From Verrucomicrobium sp. GAS474 (GTDB lineage Bacteria > Verrucomicrobiota > Verrucomicrobiia > Methylacidiphilales > GAS474), in NCBI RefSeq assembly GCF_900105685.1, contig NZ_LT629781.1, forward strand, positions 620,001-684,000: a stretch of 64,000 nt of DNA, read 5' to 3'. Below, piece by piece: positions 8,744 to 55,776 of the stretch (position 1 is its first letter; every line of letters begins with the position of its first letter). The translations under genes and the position numbers were made by a program. The notes under the pieces are model-generated. The model searched no databases. It was given only the letters and a program-made list of their open reading frames with translations, and was not told the DNA's origin.

Positions 8744-9490
8744 ATGAGCGATCCCGCCAATCCCAACGCCAGCGCCCTCTACATCCGCACCGTCCTGAAA
8801 TCGTCGGGCGCGAAGGCGACCGAGACCGCCCTGGCCACCATCGGGGCCGACCACGGCGACGAGCAGCTGGCCGTGATCGTCGGGGAGCTGACCCCCGGCG
8901 AGGTCAGCCAGATCCTCAGCGCCTCCGACTACACGAAGCCCTCCATCGCCACCCACTTCATCACCGCCGAGCAGCTCCTCGGCGTCCTGGAGCGGATCGG
9001 CGGCGAGTGGGGCTCGCTGAAGGGATCGACGATCAACGTCCTCGTCTCCCTCCGGCGCGACATCAGCGACCGGCTCCTCCCCGTCGTCCTCCTCGCCGAC
9101 GCCCCGCAGAAGGCCGCCCTCCTCGACGGGCTGCTGAAGAACACCCTCTCGCGGAACCTCATCACCGCCCTCCCCCTCTACGAGACCGAATGCCCGGAGT
9201 TCTTCACCGAATTCGAGCCGAGCGCCGCGCAGCAGGGGACCTGGCAGGAACTCTACGCCGAGATCCACCACCACTCCGCCGCCGAGTTCGACAAGCTGAA
9301 GCGGGCGATCCTCGGCCTCCTCACCAAGCACGGCGAGGGCCCGGGCGAGGAGGACGAAGTCCTCGCCGAGACCAAGGAATCGGAAGCCTTCCTGATGCGC
9401 GCCCTCCAGACCCTCTCCGACCGCGCCGCGAAGATCGTCGAGGCGAATCCCGAGGAGAAGAAGGCCCCCGGCGTCTTCGACCGCTTCTGA
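8744..9490 (+). CDS. Hypothetical protein
   Basis: 248 residues, soluble, mostly helical and acidic. Segments such as YIRTVLKSSGAKATETALATI and ITAEQLLGVLERIGGEW suggest helical repeats. The ending PGVFDRF is a short hydrophobic tail. No known motif is seen. It begins 54 bp after the preceding unknown gene in the same direction. A weak internal resemblance to the next protein exists only in composition. Confidence 0.8.
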   Translation: MSDPANPNASALYIRTVLKSSGAKATETALATIGADHGDEQLAVIVGELTPGEVSQILSASDYTKPSIATHFITAEQLLGVLERIGGEWGSLKGSTINVLVSLRRDISDRLLPVVLLADAPQKAALLDGLLKNTLSRNLITALPLYETECPEFFTEFEPSAAQQGTWQELYAEIHHHSAAEFDKLKRAILGLLTKHGEGPGEEDEVLAETKESEAFLMRALQTLSDRAAKIVEANPEEKKAPGVFDRF

Positions 9491-29426: not shown

Positions 29427-31040
29427 CTACTCCGAACGGAACGCCGTCCGCAGCGCGGGCCGGACGGGGCGGACGGGCTGGGCGGCGGCCATCGGGATCG
29501 ACCCCGGAATCGCCACGCCCGTCGCTTCCGCGTGGCCGCCGACCAGGCGGGTGAGGATGCCGACGGCGGAGCGGAGCTCGGTCGATTGGGCGCTCAGCTC
29601 CTCGGCGGCGGCGGCGCTCTCCTCGGCCCCGGCGGCGTTGCCCTGCGTGACCTGGTCCATCTGGGAGACCGCGAAATTGATCTGGTCGATGCCGGCGGTC
29701 TGCTCCTTCGAGGCCGTCGCGATCGTCCCGATCAGGGTGTCGACCTGCCGCACCTTGCCGACGATCCCCTCGAGGCTCTCGCGGACCGTCCGGCTCTTCG
29801 CGGCGATCTCGGCGACCTGCGCCGTGACCCGCTCGTTGACTGCGACGCCGCGCTCGCTCCGGGTGACCGATTCCTCGATCATCCGGGCGGTCTCCTTCGC
29901 CGCGTCGGCGCTTCGCTTCGCGAGGGAGCGGACCTCCTCGGCGACGACGGCGAACCCGGCGCCCGATTCCCCGGCGCGGGCCGCCTCGACGGCGGCGTTC
30001 AGGGCCAGGATGTTCGTCTGGAACGCGATTTCGTCGATCGTCTTGATGATCTTCGAGACGTCTCCGCTCGACTTCTGGATATCGGAGATCGCCGCCGCCA
30101 TCTCGACGCTCGCGGCCTCGATCGAGGTCGTCGCCTTCTCCATCTCGGCGGTGCGGACGACGCCGTCCTCGGCGGCGGCGCGGGCCTCGCCGGAAAGATG
30201 CTGCGCCTGGACCGCGCCCTCGGCGTTGCGCTTCGTCATGCTGCCGACCTCCTCGAGGGAGGCGCTCGTCTCCTCGAGGGAGGCGGCCTGCTGGCTCGCC
30301 CGCTCGGCCATCATCTGGCTCCCGGAGGAGACCTGCCCCGCCGCCGAGACGATCTCGTGCGAGCCGTGCTCCAGCATCTGCGAGACCTCACAGAGCGCCG
30401 CATTCAGCGAACGGGAAATCACGACTGCCAGGGTGATCCCCGCCACCAGGGCGAGGAGGGAAACGCCGAGGAGGATTTGGAGACCGGAGGCGATCAGGCG
30501 ATTACTTGTCTCGGAATACGCATGACTCTGCGCGAGCTGGTGATCGAACATCTGCTGGATTTTCACTCCCAGGGCGATCCTCAACGGAATCACCTCTCGA
30601 ACATTCAATTCAAAGGCCTCGGCCTTCTTCTCGGCCCGGCTCAATTCCAAGACCTTTTCCCGTCCCGCATTGTAGATGCGCCGGGCCGCGTCATATTCGG
30701 CCAGGTCTTTCCTCTCTTCGTAGCTCAGGGAGGTTTTGGCGAATTCAGCTTCCAACGCCTCGCCCCGTTCCTTGATATCGATCAGCTTCTTGTCCTGGAC
30801 CGCCATCAATTCCGGCGTCGGCAAGAGGAGATGGGTCAGCACCGCCGCCACCCGTTCCCCTTGCAGCGCCTCGATCTTCGCCACAAAGACCAAGCCGGGA
30901 ATAGCGTCGTCATCCACCTTGTGGACCGACGACTTGATGTTGAGGAGAAGGTTGAACGAAGCACCCGCCAAGAACACGAGGAGGAGCAGCACGACCGAGA
31001 AGCCGAAGGCGATCCGTTTTTGTAGGGTCCAGTTTTTCAT
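29427..31040 (-). CDS. Methyl-accepting chemotaxis protein
   Basis: 537 residues. A membrane helix at ~10-30 leads to a periplasmic four-helix-bundle sensor (30-190), a second helix at ~190-215 and a cytoplasmic signalling rod. The hairpin tip [20 protein letters not shown] and [20 protein letters not shown] is the CheA/CheW-binding core. A HAMP unit is short or degenerate. There is no C-terminal CheR-docking pentapeptide. The ATG at 31038-31040 ([10 protein letters not shown]) is chosen over an upstream start. Ligand unknown. A fragment of a second copy lies just upstream. Confidence 0.92.
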
Positions 31041-31228
31041 GACTGGAGAGTCGCATCGCCCATGCCACATCGATCCCCGCGCGACGCCCTACTCTGGAAG
31101 CTGAGTAGATATAGGGCTCCGAGCAGCCGAACTCTTATCCCCTCAGCCCGCCCCGATGATCAATCCCTGATCACCCGCTGATCACTTCCCGACCAGTCAC
31201 CCTGTCACGCGATCACGATCGGGAGCGG

Positions 31229-31397
31229 GGTCGCCTGCCGCACCTTGCCGACGATTCATCGAGACTCTGGCGGACCGGCTCTTCGCGGCCCGGATGCCGA
31301 GGAGAAGCTGGAACGAGGCCCCTGCGAGAAAGACCAAGAGGAACAGCACGATCGAGAAGCCGAAAACAATCCGCTTTTGCAAAGCCCAGCTCTTCAT
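31229..31397 (-). pseudogene. Remnant of a second chemoreceptor gene
   Basis: The first ~27 codons (MKSWALQKRIVFGFS, FLAGASFQLLLGIRA) closely match the start of the neighbouring receptor. They are joined directly to sequence corresponding to its signalling domain (around 29731-29795; shared CTGCCGCACCTTGCCGACGA and GGCTCTTCGCGG), out of frame. The 1.3 kb between these points is missing. This is an internally deleted duplicate. The surrounding gap (31041-31228 and 31398-31556) holds no other gene; TGATCA-containing short repeats occur near 31155-31185. Confidence 0.85.
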
Positions 31398-47881: not shown

Positions 47882-47922
47882 GTTGTGAAAGATTGACTTG
47901 CAAACAAATCGGAACCCTCCAT

Positions 47923-47948
47923 CTTTTCCTCCTCGAAAGGAGGAAAAG
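47923..47948 (+). promoter_or_regulatory. Hairpin burying the Shine-Dalgarno sequence of HDOD gene 1
   Basis: CTTTTCCTCC pairs perfectly with GGAGGAAAAG around the loop TCGAAA. The ribosome site GGAGG (47939-47943) lies inside the stem, 8 bp before the ATG at 47952. Translation should therefore need the hairpin to open, for example by temperature, a protein or a small RNA. The second HDOD gene has no equal hairpin. Confidence 0.75.
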
Positions 47949-47951
47949 ACC

Positions 47952-48941
47952 ATGCGCCCCACCCCGAATTCAGCGAATCCGACGAACCCGAAAAACCTGG
48001 AAAAGACGGCCGAGATCCGTCGGCGGCTCTACCCGCAAGGACAGGGCGCGGTCGAGACCGACCTCGAGGCGCGCCTCCTCCGCTTCATCGAGAGGGAGGG
48101 CGATGTCCTCCCCGCCGCCGAGTCGGCCCTCGGCCAGCTCGGCCGCCAGCTTTACCGGGACGAGGTCGCCCTCGACCGCTGCATCGACATCATCGCGACC
48201 GACGCCTCCCTCACCCACCTCGTCCTCCGCGCGGCGAACATCGCCGCCCTCGGCAGCCGCAAGTTCACGATCCCCTACGCCGTGATGTTCCTCGGCCTCG
48301 CCCGCCTCCGCGTCCTCTTCGGCGTCGAGGTCCTCCGCCGGATGAACGGGGACCGCCTCTCCGCCGATTGGGTCCCGTTCTGGGAACGGAGCCTCTTCTC
48401 GGCCCGCCTCCTCGAGCGGCTCGCCTCCTACTACCATCCGATCGACGGGACCGAGTATCTGGCCGGCCTCCTCCACGACGCCTCGTGGCCGACGGTCGTC
48501 ACCTTCTTCCGCAAGGAATACTCGATCTTCTTCGACCGCGCCGACGCCCTCTTCCCGCTGGAGAAGACCCTCTTCGGCACCTCCCACGCGGCGATCTCCG
48601 CCGCGATGTGCGTCCGCTCCGGCCTCCCCGTCCACGTCGTCGAGGCCATCGCCCGGCATCACGACGCGGCCCTGCCCGAGAGGGCGACGATCACGAACCT
48701 CCGCTACAACGGCCCCTTCCTCGGCGTCCTCCTCCAGCTCACCGACGACATCGCCGACGCCTGCGGCTTCCCCTCCGACCGCCCCGCCGGGAGCGACGAC
48801 GGGAAGACGATGGACGACGTCCTCGCCTCCCCCCGGGTCGCCTGGATCAACGCCTTCGGCTGGCATCCCGACCTGAACACGATGGCCCAGGACGAGCTCC
48901 TCCAGGTCCGCAAGGTCGGCCTCCTCCTCCAGGCGTCCTAG
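47952..48941 (+). CDS. HDOD-domain signalling protein 1
   Basis: 329 residues, one HDOD domain (HD-related output domain). THLVLRAANIAALGSRKFTI, PYAVMFLGLARLRVLFG, YLAGLLHDASWPTVV and IARHHDAAL are the conserved blocks. Most residues are identical to those of the gene at 52090. HDOD proteins act in signalling and do not normally hydrolyse nucleotides. The N-terminal ~15 residues are Asn/Pro-rich and unlike the second copy. I start at the ATG at 47952 because the Shine-Dalgarno is directly before it. Confidence 0.9.
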   Translation: MRPTPNSANPTNPKNLEKTAEIRRRLYPQGQGAVETDLEARLLRFIEREGDVLPAAESALGQLGRQLYRDEVALDRCIDIIATDASLTHLVLRAANIAALGSRKFTIPYAVMFLGLARLRVLFGVEVLRRMNGDRLSADWVPFWERSLFSARLLERLASYYHPIDGTEYLAGLLHDASWPTVVTFFRKEYSIFFDRADALFPLEKTLFGTSHAAISAAMCVRSGLPVHVVEAIARHHDAALPERATITNLRYNGPFLGVLLQLTDDIADACGFPSDRPAGSDDGKTMDDVLASPRVAWINAFGWHPDLNTMAQDELLQVRKVGLLLQAS

Positions 48942-49035
48942 GCCAAGCCTGGGCCTGCACCCGCGGTAGAAGCGCGGGGATGGATTGATTTCCGGCGGAA
49001 AGACTGCGAACCTGCCCGGCTCTCCCCCCGCCGCC

Positions 49036-50601
49036 ATGTCCCTCTCGTCCGCCTCCCCCACGCTGGAAGAATTGAAAGCCGCCGCCGCGGTCCTCGAAAA
49101 GGCGGCGGCGAACCGCGCCGTGCTGAGCCAGCTTTCCGACGAGGAACGGAACCGGTTCCTCCAGGCGGCGGGCGACGTCTTCTGCCCCGACGTCGGCGAG
49201 CGGCGGCAGCTGGTCCGGGCGAAGGCCCGCCAGCGCAAGGCGGAGAAGATCGAGCGCGACCAGTCGAAGCTCCACCAGACCGGCATCCGCAAGCTCCGCC
49301 GCGAGGCCGTCTTCGTCACCCCCAATGTCTACCCCCCCCTCGCCTTCGAGCAGCACGAGGTGACCGGCGATCCGGCGCTCGAATTCCGCGAAGTCGTCGA
49401 GCCGCAGAACTGCTACATCTGCAAGAAGGACTACTCGACCCTCCACCATTTCTACGACCAGCTCTGCCCCGCGTGCGCCGAGCTGAACTGGCTGAAGCGG
49501 ACCGAGAGCGCCGACCTCCGGGGCCGCGTCGCCCTCCTCACCGGGGGCCGGGTGAAGATCGGCTACCAGGCCGGGATCAAGCTCCTCCGCGCCGGGGTCC
49601 ACCTCGTCGTCACCACCCGCTTCCCGCGCGACTCGGCGGTCCGCTACGCCGCGGAGCCCGACTTCGCCGAATGGGGCCACCGGCTCGAGATCATCGGCCT
49701 CGACCTCCGCCACACGCCGAGCGTCGAGGCCTTCTGCCGCCACATGACGGCGAACCACGCGCGCCTCGACTTCATCGTCAACAACGCCTGCCAGACCGTC
49801 CGCCGCCCGCCCGACTTCTACGAGCACATGATGGCCCGGGAGAACGGCCCCCTCCACGACCTCCCCGAGGCGACCCGCAAGCTCCTCGGCACCTACGAGG
49901 GATTGCGCGGCTACCACATGCTTCCCGAAGGCCAGGGAGCCGCCGGAACCGTCGGAGCGGGGACGTCCTCCCCCGCCTCCTCGCCCCTCGCGGGGATCAC
50001 CCACGCGGCGGCCCTCTCCCAGGTCTCGCTCCTGCCGGAGGAACTCGCCGCGCAGAAGGACCTCTTCCCCCAGGGCCGCCTCGACCAGGACCTCCAGCAG
50101 GTCGACCTCCGGGAAAAGAACTCGTGGCGGCTCATGATGGCCGAGGTCCCCTCGGTCGAGCTCCTCGAGGTGCAGCTCATCAACGCCATCGCCCCCTTCA
50201 TCCTCAACGCCCGGCTGAAGCCGCTGATGCTCCGCACCCCGGGCCGGGACAAGCACATCGTCAACGTCTCCGCCGTCGAGGGGCAGTTCTACCGGAAGTT
50301 CAAGACCACCCGCCATCCCCACACCAACATGGCGAAGGCGGCCCTGAACATGATGACCCGCACCGCCGCCGCCGATTACCACGCCGACGGCATCCACATG
50401 AACGCCGTCGACACCGGCTGGGTGACCGACGAGGACCCCGTCCAGATCGCCGAGCGGAAGACCCAGGAACACCGCTTCCACCCTCCCCTCGACATCGTCG
50501 ACGGCGCGGCCCGGATCGTCGACCCGATCATCGACGGGATCAACACCGGCACCCACATCTGGGGCAAGTTCCTGAAGGATTATCGGTCGACCGATTGGTA
50601 A
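49036..50601 (+). CDS. SDR-family protein with a zinc ribbon
   Basis: 521 residues. A helical N-terminus (to ~115) is followed by a zinc-ribbon-like CYICKKDYS ... CPACAELN (~135-160), then an SDR Rossmann fold: [30 protein letters not shown] and [13 protein letters not shown]. The catalytic Tyr of the YxxxK motif is replaced: [13 protein letters not shown] has Thr at that position while the Lys is kept. Activity as a normal dehydrogenase is doubtful. The insertion from ~300 to 370 is long and Gln/Leu-rich. The 3' end of the gene is duplicated at 51871-51940. Confidence 0.82.
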
Positions 50602-50607
50602 ACGGCC
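50538..50607 (+). repeat. 70-bp direct repeat, left copy (3' end of the SDR gene)
   Basis: Covers the last 21 codons, the stop and 6 bp more of the SDR gene. The right copy at 51871-51940 has a single difference (TTAT versus TTAC). Together they bracket the low-GC acyltransferase gene. Weaker similarity continues leftward at the right copy (ATCGTCGA then CCG), showing that it derives from this gene. Confidence 0.93.
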
Positions 50608-50611
50608 GAAG

Positions 50612-51766
50612 CTATATTTCAGGCGGTGGGGGGAACTGAAACGGGACAGGCGGGCACAGCGACCTTTTTGCTGCATTCAAAATCGGCAGGGAATAATAGC
50701 GATAGACCAGGACGGCCAACCCCAAGCTGCCGAAACCCGGGATGACGCTGTAAATTAAAAAGCGGAACACACTGCTGGAGGCATGACCTGCATAAGAGAA
50801 AATGGTGTGCAGCAAATACCATTCGTAGCTGACCACCCCCAAGCCGACCATCGTCCAGGAATTCAAAAAAGCATGCCAAGGACGCCCTGAACCGAGAGAG
50901 GAAAAAAGAAGGAAAAAGCACGATAGGCCGATGGCCGGAGGGAACCAAAATGAGGTGGTGTAAGCCTTGATCACAGACTCATACTTCTCGACCTCGACAG
51001 CGAGGCCGGCATATCCAAAGCCCACAATAAGAGCGGAAAGTCCGGCGACACCGATGCAAAAAAGAAGGTCGGCATGCTTCTTGAGCGTCTTTGAGGGAAC
51101 CGAAAGATCAAGATAGGCGAAAGCGATTCCCCAGGCGAAGTATTGAAAGAAGGAGAGAGTTCCCAGCCATGAGCCGCTTGGCAGGGAAAATTTCAGGGAG
51201 AGGATTTTTACGGCGGGAGCAAAAAGCCAGAATCCGAGGAGGAGCGCCGAGACGGTTTGCGCGACGGTCAGCCTGCGACATAGAAAAAAGGCGAGGGGAA
51301 GCAAAAGATAGAACCAAGCCTCGACACCGAGCGTCCAAAGAACGGCGAGGAGCGGGTTTTCAGTCGGGGCTATCGTGTAATAGAAAAAGGCTTCCTGGGA
51401 GATGCGACGAAACAGATCGCCTCCATTTCCCATGAGACAGGCCGAGGCGGCCGCCAACGCGATCGCCAGATAGCAGGGAGGAATGATTTTGAAAACGCGC
51501 CGCACGGCATAGCCTTTCAGCCCTACCGAGCGCCCTTCGATCTTCGCCTTGAGAAAGGGCCGGCTGATCAGCAGGCCGGACAGTACGAAGAAGATATCGA
51601 CTCCCATCCATCCGCTCCGAAGCAAGAGAGCGGGAGCGAAGAGGACCCCATGCGTGCAGCTCCGAAAGGCGAGAAGATGATTAAAGACCACCAGGAGAAT
51701 CGCCACACCCCGAAGGCCGTCCACGGAACGGTAATGGGAGTCGGCGCGGAGAGTGGAAGGGGTCAT
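50612..51766 (-). CDS. Acyltransferase-3 family membrane protein (OafA/YrhL type)
   Basis: 384 residues from the ATG at 51766, with about ten membrane helices. The signature start SVDGLRGVAILLVVFNH, then FFVLSGLLISRPFLKAK and the central FYYTIAPTENPLLAVLWTLG identify acyltransferase-3 (inner-membrane transfer of acetyl or other acyl groups to cell-surface sugars). Base composition is clearly lower in GC than in all neighbours and codon use differs, so recent horizontal gain is likely. It converges with the SDR gene, stopping 10 bp from it. Acceptor unknown. Confidence 0.9.
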   Translation of the reverse strand: MTPSTLRADSHYRSVDGLRGVAILLVVFNHLLAFRSCTHGVLFAPALLLRSGWMGVDIFFVLSGLLISRPFLKAKIEGRSVGLKGYAVRRVFKIIPPCYLAIALAAASACLMGNGGDLFRRISQEAFFYYTIAPTENPLLAVLWTLGVEAWFYLLLPLAFFLCRRLTVAQTVSALLLGFWLFAPAVKILSLKFSLPSGSWLGTLSFFQYFAWGIAFAYLDLSVPSKTLKKHADLLFCIGVAGLSALIVGFGYAGLAVEVEKYESVIKAYTTSFWFPPAIGLSCFFLLFSSLGSGRPWHAFLNSWTMVGLGVVSYEWYLLHTIFSYAGHASSSVFRFLIYSVIPGFGSLGLAVLVYRYYSLPILNAAKRSLCPPVPFQFPPPPEI

Positions 51767-51870
51767 TATGGGTGCCTCTTTTATACATAAGCTAAAAGAG
51801 CCTTGAATATATAAAATCCGTAAACCTAGCTCGAATGGATCCGGGAAATCCGAAATCGTCGATCCGTCAA

Positions 51871-51940
51871 GATCAACACCGGCACCCACATCTGGGGCAA
51901 GTTCCTGAAGGATTACCGGTCGACCGATTGGTAAACGGCC
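51871..51940 (+). repeat. 70-bp direct repeat, right copy
   Basis: Second copy of the SDR gene end (starts GATCAACACCGGCACCCACA, ends GGTAAACGGCC). It lies upstream of HDOD gene 2 and has no start codon or upstream coding part, so it is a relict. The stretch 51767-51870 is AT-rich with TATATAAAATCC. The rest of the 323-bp gap up to 52089 holds the shared motif and leader of HDOD 2. Confidence 0.93.
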
Positions 51941-52089: not shown

Positions 52090-53043
52090 ATGAGCACCAT
52101 CACCCTAGAACAGGCCGCCACGATCCAGAACCGTCTCTTCCCCGACGGAGCGGTTCCCAACGATCTCGAACAGCGCCTTCTCCGCTTCGTCCAGACGGAA
52201 GGCGATGTCCTTCCCGCCGCCGACTCGGCCCTCAGTAATCTGGGCCGCCAGCTTTACCGCGACGACGTCTCCCTCGACCGCTGCAACGACATCATCTCGA
52301 CCGACGCGGCCCTCACCCACCTCGTCCTCCGGGCCGCGAACATCGCCGCCCTCGGCAGCCGCCACTTCACGATCCCCTACGCCGTGATGTTCCTCGGCCT
52401 CGCCCGCCTCCGCGTCCTCTTCGGCGTCGAGGTCCTCCGCCGGATGAACGCGAACCGACTCGGCGGGGACTGGATCCCGTTCTGGGAGCGGAACCTCTTC
52501 GTCGCCCGGATGGTCGAGCGGCTCGCCTCCTACTACCATCCCGTCGACGGGACCGAATACCTCGCCGGCCTCCTCCACGACGCCTCGTGGCCGACGGTCG
52601 TCACCTTCTTCAAGCGGGAATACGGAGTCTTCTTCGACCAGTCGGACGCCCTCTTCCCGCTCGAAAAGGAGGTCTTCGGCACTACCCATGCGGCGATCTC
52701 CGCCGCCATGTGCGTCCGCTCCGGCCTCCCGCCCCACGTCGTCGATGCCGTCGCCCGGCACCACGACGCGACCCTCCCGGACAAGACCAAAATCACGAAC
52801 CTCCGCTACAACGGCCCCTTCCTCGGCGTCCTCCTCCAGCTCACCGACGAGATCGCCGACGCCTGCGGCTTCCCCTCGGCCACCGACCGCGTCGGCGGCA
52901 ACCGGAAGATGGAGGACGTCCTCCACTCCCCGCGCGCGATCTGGATCGCCTCCTTCGGCCGCCATCCCGAGCTCAACGCCATCGCGCAGGAGGAGCTCCA
53001 GCAGGTCCGCCGCGTCGGGCAGCTCTTCCAGGCGGGGGAATAA
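52090..53043 (+). CDS. HDOD-domain signalling protein 2
   Basis: 317 residues, paralogue of the gene at 47952: the same HDOD blocks (THLVLRAANIAALGSRHFTI, YLAGLLHDASWPTVV, VARHHDATLP) and same C-terminal region to QVRRVGQLFQ. Differences cluster at the N-terminus and at the ~GFPS loop. Shine-Dalgarno AAGGAGG lies directly before the ATG. The two copies probably answer to related signals. Confidence 0.92.
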   Translation: MSTITLEQAATIQNRLFPDGAVPNDLEQRLLRFVQTEGDVLPAADSALSNLGRQLYRDDVSLDRCNDIISTDAALTHLVLRAANIAALGSRHFTIPYAVMFLGLARLRVLFGVEVLRRMNANRLGGDWIPFWERNLFVARMVERLASYYHPVDGTEYLAGLLHDASWPTVVTFFKREYGVFFDQSDALFPLEKEVFGTTHAAISAAMCVRSGLPPHVVDAVARHHDATLPDKTKITNLRYNGPFLGVLLQLTDEIADACGFPSATDRVGGNRKMEDVLHSPRAIWIASFGRHPELNAIAQEELQQVRRVGQLFQAGE

Positions 53044-54401: not shown

Positions 54402-54576
54402 GGCGGCACGATGAGCCCGATTCCCTCCGCCTTCGAGGCGGGGGGGACGAAATCGGGCCGCGAAGGGACGAAAACCGGAAAACGGGGGACGGGCCGGGCA
54501 GGGGCGAAAAAAGCGCCCTCCCGCCCCGAAAATCGGCTTGTTCCGGCCGCGCCGAAGGGAGAGATTGGCCTCCACG

Positions 54577-55776
54577 ATGCGCGACGATTTCCCTCCTGCC
54601 GGAACCGGTCCCTCGCCTGCGGGGACCGTTCCGGAGCCCCCCTCCGTCCTCGCCGTCGCCGGGGCCGCCTTCGTCGTCTTCTGGCTCCTCCTCCTCGTCC
54701 TCTTCGCCGCGCCGCCCGTCTTCTTTTTCAGCGCCTCGTGGGCCGGGGCCTTCCGGGGCTCGCTGATCCTCTGGCTCCCGTGGATGATCGTCAGCCCGGC
54801 GATGCTCGCCGCCGCCCACCTCCTGCCGCCCCGCTTCGGGAAGGGCTCGGGACCGGGGCAGTGGCTCCTCTTCCTCGGCGGCCACCTCGCCGTCTGCGTC
54901 GCGCTGATGTTCGCCGCCGGATGGCTGATGATCCACATCCTGCCGAAGCCGCCCCACGCCGAGCATCGGCCGCCCCCGCCGCAGGAGGATCAGTACGCCG
55001 CCGACGGCACGAACATCGGCCGCCCCACCCGGGTCGACCGGGTCGTGATGGACCACTTCCTCCAGGGCGTCCCGATCTCGGTCCCGCTCTACGTCGCCTC
55101 GCTCCTCCTCGTCTCGGTCCTCGCCTCCCACCGTCGCGCCCTCCGCCGGGAGCAGCGGACCGCCGAGCTCGAACAGCAGCTCTCCCAGGCGCGGCTCGAC
55201 GCCCTCCGCGCCCAGCTCCACCCCCACTTCCTCTTCAACACCCTCAACGTCCTCGCGGAGCAGATCCACACCGCGCCCGACCAGGCGGAGGAGATCGTCC
55301 TGAGCCTCGGCAACCTCCTCCGCGCCGCCCTCGACACCCGGAACAAGACCCGCATCCCGCTCCGGCAGGAGGCGCAGCTCGCCCGCGATTACCTCGGCAT
55401 CCAGAAGATCCGCCACGGCAGGCGGCTCCGCGTCGAGGAGGAGATCCCGGCGGAGACCCTCTCCTGCGCCGTCCCGCCGCTGATCCTCCAGCCCCTCCTC
55501 GAGAACGCGGTGAAGTACGCCGTGGAGGAATGTCCCGGCGAGGCGGTGATCCGCTTCCGCGCCAGCCGGATCGAGGAACGCCTCGTCGTCGAGATCGAGG
55601 ACAGCGGCGCCGACCTCGGCCCCCGCTCGCGGAGCGGGCACGGCATCGGCATCGAGAACGTCCGCACCCGCCTGGAGGCCTCCTACCCGGGCCTCCCCGT
55701 CCGCTTCGACCTCCTGCCGAACCGCTTCGGCGGCATTACCGCTCGGATCGAGATCCCCGTCGTCTCCGCCCTATGA
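54577..55776 (+). CDS. LytS-type sensor histidine kinase
   Basis: 399 residues from the ATG at 54577. Four to five membrane helices within ~30-190 are followed by a coiled coil and the His_kinase domain, whose motif LRAQLHPHFLFNTLNVLAEQ carries the phospho-accepting His. The HATPase part has PLLENAVKYAVEE and GHGIGIENVRTRLE. Kinases of this class (LytS, YehU, AgrC-like) pair with LytTR regulators, and the next gene is one. Signal unknown. Confidence 0.92.
   Translation: MRDDFPPAGTGPSPAGTVPEPPSVLAVAGAAFVVFWLLLLVLFAAPPVFFFSASWAGAFRGSLILWLPWMIVSPAMLAAAHLLPPRFGKGSGPGQWLLFLGGHLAVCVALMFAAGWLMIHILPKPPHAEHRPPPPQEDQYAADGTNIGRPTRVDRVVMDHFLQGVPISVPLYVASLLLVSVLASHRRALRREQRTAELEQQLSQARLDALRAQLHPHFLFNTLNVLAEQIHTAPDQAEEIVLSLGNLLRAALDTRNKTRIPLRQEAQLARDYLGIQKIRHGRRLRVEEEIPAETLSCAVPPLILQPLLENAVKYAVEECPGEAVIRFRASRIEERLVVEIEDSGADLGPRSRSGHGIGIENVRTRLEASYPGLPVRFDLLPNRFGGITARIEIPVVSAL

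Follow-up and report, generated by a model that had tools for sequence, protein, structure and literature searches.

The window, i.e., the whole 64-kb stretch of DNA analysed, contains an SDR gene whose 3′ end (the tail) is present in two copies. The SDR protein has 538 aa, a long N-terminal extension and an adh_short domain (PF00106). An insert with an acyltransferase gene lies between the two tails, and an HDOD gene follows. The features of the locus are as follows:

48985–50601, + strand: SDR gene, the intact host gene of the insertion site (ORF; adh_short PF00106; orthologs)
50538–50607, + strand: left tail copy, 64 nt of the SDR 3′ end including the stop codon, plus 6 nt (direct repeat, 69/70)
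50608–51870, no strand: inserted cassette, 1,263 nt, 53.8% GC (between both tails; lowest-GC stretch)
50612–51766, − strand: acyltransferase gene, the cargo (Acyl_transf_3, 384 aa; PF01757; single copy; GC3 0.64)
51871–51940, + strand: right tail copy, outside its gene, with a weak extension to about 51855 (direct repeat)
52090–53043, + strand: HDOD gene (PF08668)

The direct repeat (50538–50607 and 51871–51940) is 70 nt long and identical at 69 of 70 positions (98.6%, one mismatch), which excludes a chance origin. Its left copy comprises the final 64 nt of the SDR ORF, including the stop codon, and 6 nt past the stop; on the right, the repeat thus ends essentially at the SDR stop codon. The right copy features a weak additional match, ATCGTCGAtCCG, with a 7-nt gap, and the SDR-derived part then amounts to about 86 nt. 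No further copy of the 70-nt repeat exists anywhere in the 3.76-Mb single-contig genome of the window (G000). The initial annotation had placed the acyltransferase gene between two such repeats and had described the SDR gene as kept intact by the left copy; both statements were borne out, the ORF 48985–50601 running through this copy. The low GC-content that it had noted was likewise confirmed by a composition check: the 1,263 nt insert (50608–51870) has 53.8% GC compared with 67.5% for the window, and sits in the lowest-GC stretch of the latter.

No tRNA or known RNA target was found at the insertion site. ARAGORN reported a tRNA-Ser (cga) at 54993–55070 on the minus strand, inside a histidine-kinase-like ORF (54538–55776), and this call is probably false. 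Another repeat in the window, of 69 nt and 84% identity (29736–29804 and 31227–31289), duplicates a segment from inside the minus-strand gene 29427–31070 (methyl-accepting/HAMP-like by reading), with the copy at 31227–31289 positioned about 150 bp upstream of the start of that gene. Two clearly similar HDOD genes, 47898–48941 and 52090–53043, flank the SDR–acyltransferase block. A tandem duplication of an HDOD–SDR block was considered and rejected: the flanking HDOD genes have clearly diverged, in contrast to the tails with their 99% identity, and the gene order does not fit. The HDOD gene at 52090–53043 would be the neighbour that the SDR gene meets at an empty site.

The acyltransferase belongs to Acyl_transf_3 (PF01757, E 1.5e-20). 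The GC3 of its gene is 0.64, compared with 0.86–0.96 in the other genes measured. The window genome contains no close paralog, and no relatives with more than 40% identity were found among 387 genomes of the phylum, where the best match showed 31% identity over the full length and 40% over a part. Among the plasmid matches listed, identity was below 32%. PADLOC gave no defence-gene hit for either the acyltransferase or the SDR. The 98.6% identity of the tails and the low GC-content argue for a foreign island, which by its tail identity would have arrived recently. The refuting condition named in the initial annotation, one island shared by all relatives at a single position and with equal base composition, does not hold: in no other fetched SDR locus does the acyltransferase gene lie beside the SDR gene, and the phylum search gave no relative above the 40% identity stated.

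A full-length ortholog of the SDR was found in none of 59 relatives of the window genome, and the SDR tail is present in 142 of 320 genomes of another order of the phylum. The search of species genomes provided 80 SDR orthologs with identities of 72–82%; viral contigs contained no SDR. Neither acyltransferase nor HDOD genes adjoin the SDR gene in any of the other fetched loci, so no empty site in the window's own lineage was found. Altogether, 157 SDR-bearing stretches with 117 distinct tails were read, and tail copies were sought with a profile of the 120-nt SDR tail. In locus L068, a 45-nt internal piece of the SDR gene (9037–9081) has a second copy 1.5 kb downstream of this gene.

The same layout, consisting of an intact SDR gene, a small insert and a second copy of the last ~50–110 nt of SDR ending at the stop codon, recurs in several families with varied cargo. 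A second tail downstream of an intact SDR gene is present in L043, L048, L049, L071 (three copies), L098, L161, L170 and the window, and in L058 it has decayed. The inserts are about 0.5–2.2 kb long, and nearly all the occurrences outside the window come from MAGs. Most of the recognisable cargo in the other cassettes consists of toxin–antitoxin pairs. HicA/HicB was assigned by Pfam in L049 and by similarity in L043, L161, L058 and L159, and Pfam also revealed VapB with a PIN toxin and DUF433 with a PIN_10/DUF5615 protein in L071. The DUF433 pair is found in L170 as well. L048 carries a Y1 transposase (Y1_Tnp, by Pfam), and unknown proteins are encoded in L098 and L071. The cargo occurs in both orientations.

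Behind the SDR gene and its tail, locus L071 harbors an array of three cassettes, each closed by a further tail: first VapBC, then a 255-aa gene, whose tail has an internal deletion, and finally the DUF433 pair. This pair, third in the array, is the first cassette in L170 (read as reverse complement), with 84% identity over 700 nt; the same cassette thus occurs at different array positions. The HicAB cassettes have a common cargo–tail junction. Since their divergence is similar to that of the SDR bodies, the HicAB cassettes of that genus may have been inherited vertically, with losses. In L089, what appears to be the first ~45 nt of a HicAB cassette directly follows the SDR stop codon, as a decayed cassette. 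Downstream of SDR in L071, L047, L197 and L203, there is a conserved stretch, approximately CTTTGGCTTGATAAACGGTTTGGACAGGAGCAAAGTC in gene direction. Stretches of this kind lie upstream of unrelated minus-strand genes (the ankyrin-like gene and the 255-aa gene); a common promoter or a further cassette boundary are candidate readings.

The two edges of the tail copies behave differently. In eight pairs of left and right tails, the mean identity drops from 0.92 in the last ten bases of the gene to 0.31 in the ten bases past the stop codon, and on the left side, it declines between about −60 and −110. Hence, the tails have a near-fixed right edge, at the stop codon, and a variable left one. The copies end 0 to ~25 nt beyond the SDR stop codon: in the HicAB cassettes, about 22 nt more look related, and in the window, 6 nt. 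The left edges lie ~51–110 nt from the end, and one isolated copy is longer.

The comparison of loci revealed both states of the site. In L047, L197, L203 and L182, an ankyrin-repeat-like gene (by reading) directly follows the SDR gene, and in L161 a HicAB cassette and a second tail separate the two. The L161 flank past the right tail matches the SDR flanks of L047, L197, L203 and L182 with z-scores of 15.6, 10.0, 10.2 and 5.1, respectively, compared with 2.5 or less for the flank past the left tail. Judged by these scores, the four loci correspond to the empty site and L161 to the occupied one. The initial annotation had suggested a search for an empty SDR–HDOD junction in relatives; in the empty sites found here, SDR is joined directly to the ankyrin-repeat-like gene. 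In L170, an ankyrin-repeat-like gene also follows the second tail, and the immediate flank has diverged (z 1.7–3.5). Contig breaks at the SDR stop codon (G690, G692 and L050) were discarded as a sign of strain polymorphism, because contig ends just upstream of SDR looked about equally frequent.

As a control, 1.33 Mb of fetched loci was searched for direct repeats comparable in size and spacing, which gave 39 pairs, duplicate loci being counted. The non-SDR pairs inspected were REP-like sequences, repeats within genes or unrelated duplications, and none of the inspected repeats represented another gene end duplicated behind a small insert. Within this control, the idea that gene ends in general become duplicated in this way was rejected. 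SDR tails were also found far from the SDR gene in G570 (L260), G674 (three: L261, L264 and L265) and G684 (L262); behind the L265 tail, the flank resembles the one usually found after SDR.

The origin of the second tail seems to differ between loci. Where the SDR of L073 and that of its own host differ, the last tail of L071, that of the third cassette, agrees with L073 at 10 sites and with the host at 0, a count uncorrected for the choice of the best match. This 10:0 ratio suggests that cassettes can bring their own tail from one species to another. The tails of L170, L161 and L048 lean toward a foreign SDR as that of L071 does, again uncorrected for this choice; among all the tails, the preference is clear in only one case. 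For the window, L098, L043 and L049, the SDR of the same locus is at least as near to the right tail as the foreign one, so the host's own tail may have been copied there. This suggests that a host can also supply the tail itself, or that gene conversion can homogenise it.

As the initial annotation had stated, no integrase of the IntI/Xer kind is encoded in the 64-kb window. A search of the SDR flanks for IntI-like genes found none near any occurrence. A scar of the phage-attachment type is consequently not supported, no recombinase having been found near any occurrence in this search for the IntI/Xer kind. G000 contains only three tyrosine recombinases, none of them adjacent to the site. The integron integrase profile TIGR02249 gave no match over the cut-off in G000 (complete), G644, G661, G673, G686 and G678. 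An integron would be expected to have attC core sites (RYYYAAC ... GTTRRRY), and the core GTTRRRY was found in 0 of 136 tails. Six strands of the tails were folded, and the z-scores of −1.2 to +1.5 point to no special fold. A classical integron was rejected on these three grounds. The Y1 transposase in the cargo of L048 led us to consider a Y1/IS200-type mechanism (IS200/IS605 or REP-associated); the Y1 transposase profile (PF01797) had no match in G000, G477, G646 and G686, and its absence from G000 speaks against such a mechanism.

Taken together, the island probably represents a single cassette at a modular insertion site that is used recurrently, namely the 3′ end of a conserved SDR gene of Verrucomicrobiota. 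There is strong support for the integration or recombination at a gene end sparing its target that the initial annotation had proposed: other species show it at this very gene end with different cargo, and the empty site serves as a control. The term “scar” describes a real gene-end structure, but in the sense of an isolated single event it proved too narrow, the island being one occupant of a recurrent site. Phage or glycan change, suggested as a driver, finds no support: the other recognisable cargo is mostly toxin–antitoxin, and nothing ties the site to surface glycans.

The loci compared demonstrate the architecture, its recurrence with different cargo, the array, the presence of one cassette at different array positions, the empty and occupied states and the specificity for this one gene end. 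From this architecture, we infer the mobility of cassettes as tail-carrying units, as well as the direction of their movement and the enzyme involved. A cassette would be one gene or a two-gene operon with the last ~50–110 nt of SDR at its downstream end, and the model starts from cassettes that already possess this tail. They would move as circles or linear DNA, and joining at the tail would produce the order SDR, intact tail, cargo, tail copy and old neighbour. Since this joining would leave SDR with an intact tail, the host gene would never be broken. Repeated events would lead to arrays, and recombination between tails could remove a cassette, returning the site to its empty state. Tail–tail recombination is favoured for both gain and loss because the tail homology (50–110 nt) is the common denominator. 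Homology of 50–110 nt is enough for RecA-type recombination. Integration would most likely be of this homologous type, over 50–110 bp, with a recombinase acting in trans as an alternative to the RecA-type step. It is conceivable, and we propose it tentatively, that these loci represent an integrase-free cassette system new to science, in which the cargo (mainly toxin–antitoxin) carries a gene end as a recombination site, travels between species and builds arrays while the host gene stays unbroken. No earlier description of this specific arrangement was found in the open-access literature searched.

The site could also be explained by insertion with long target duplication, where each operon would have entered once, the host SDR tail being copied (e.g., during staggered-break repair), and no tail-carrying mobile cassette would exist. 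The right tail of the window, nearest to its own SDR (99% identical), and the varying tail lengths are consistent with this, and PMC3031569 and PMC1643837 present the pattern as known for Helicobacter restriction genes, which are addiction modules as toxin–antitoxin pairs are. Nevertheless, we regard it as unlikely, given the repeated use of a single gene end in several families, the arrays, the same cassette at different positions, the right edge near-fixed at the stop codon and the foreign-like third tail of L071. The near-fixed edge, together with the arrays and cassette sharing, would suit a trans-acting recombinase that uses the SDR tail as an attachment site and joins at the stop codon in an integron-like manner, and many of these SDR genomes do carry integron integrases. 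Such site-specific recombination is quite improbable, however, as IntI is below the cut-off or absent in G000 and several array genomes, none of the 136 tails has an attC core, the tails show no special fold, G000 lacks a Y1 transposase and the flanks lack an IntI-like gene. A larger integrative element (ICE/IME or prophage), once deprived of its integrase, would also leave behind a gene-end target kept whole, low GC-content and direct repeats. A remnant of this kind is very improbable, since all the inserts with both tails are tiny, they contain no mobility genes save one Y1 transposase, and the fetched loci include no integrase-bearing element at the SDR end.

The preferred reading, a recurrent insertion site occupied by tail-ended cassettes, bears on an old open question, that of how small addiction modules or single genes move with no transposase or integrase of their own. 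The SDR site offers natural replicates: one gene end has received varied cargo, exists empty as well as occupied, and bears an array. Should cassettes bring the gene end along as their homology arm, ordinary homologous recombination would suffice for integron-like arrays, and similar sites could then be found via repeated 3′ ends of genes.

Several known systems share some of these features. SCC elements integrate at the 3′ end of rlmH, and CIMEs and IMEs (the latter reviewed in PMC5704250) do so at gene ends. Integration at a 3′ end that spares the gene, as well as tandem accretion, is common to them and the SDR site. However, those elements are much longer and contain ccr or integrase genes or derive from elements that do, whereas the inserts described here are ~0.5–2.2 kb long and have no recombinase. 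Integron arrays, including the integrase-free CALIN, also feature one-gene or toxin–antitoxin cassettes in a row, an attC-sized repeat after each and a near-fixed edge, and an array of cassettes each ending in a tail is present in L071, with one cassette common to L170. In contrast to them, the repeat here comes from the coding end of a protein-coding gene and is devoid of attC core sites and special fold, the cargo can lie in either orientation, and an integron integrase is absent from the window genome. Nobusato et al. 2000, cited by PMC3031569 and PMC1643837, is the source for insertion with long target duplication, described there as producing duplications that are long and variable. The likeness lies in long direct repeats of host sequence around a small insert, which is a gene or an operon and in many cases an addiction module; such a repeat around a small insert and an empty site in a relative (for L161) are both present here. 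The SDR site differs in that a single gene end is reused across several families, that an array exists and that one cassette is common to different array positions.
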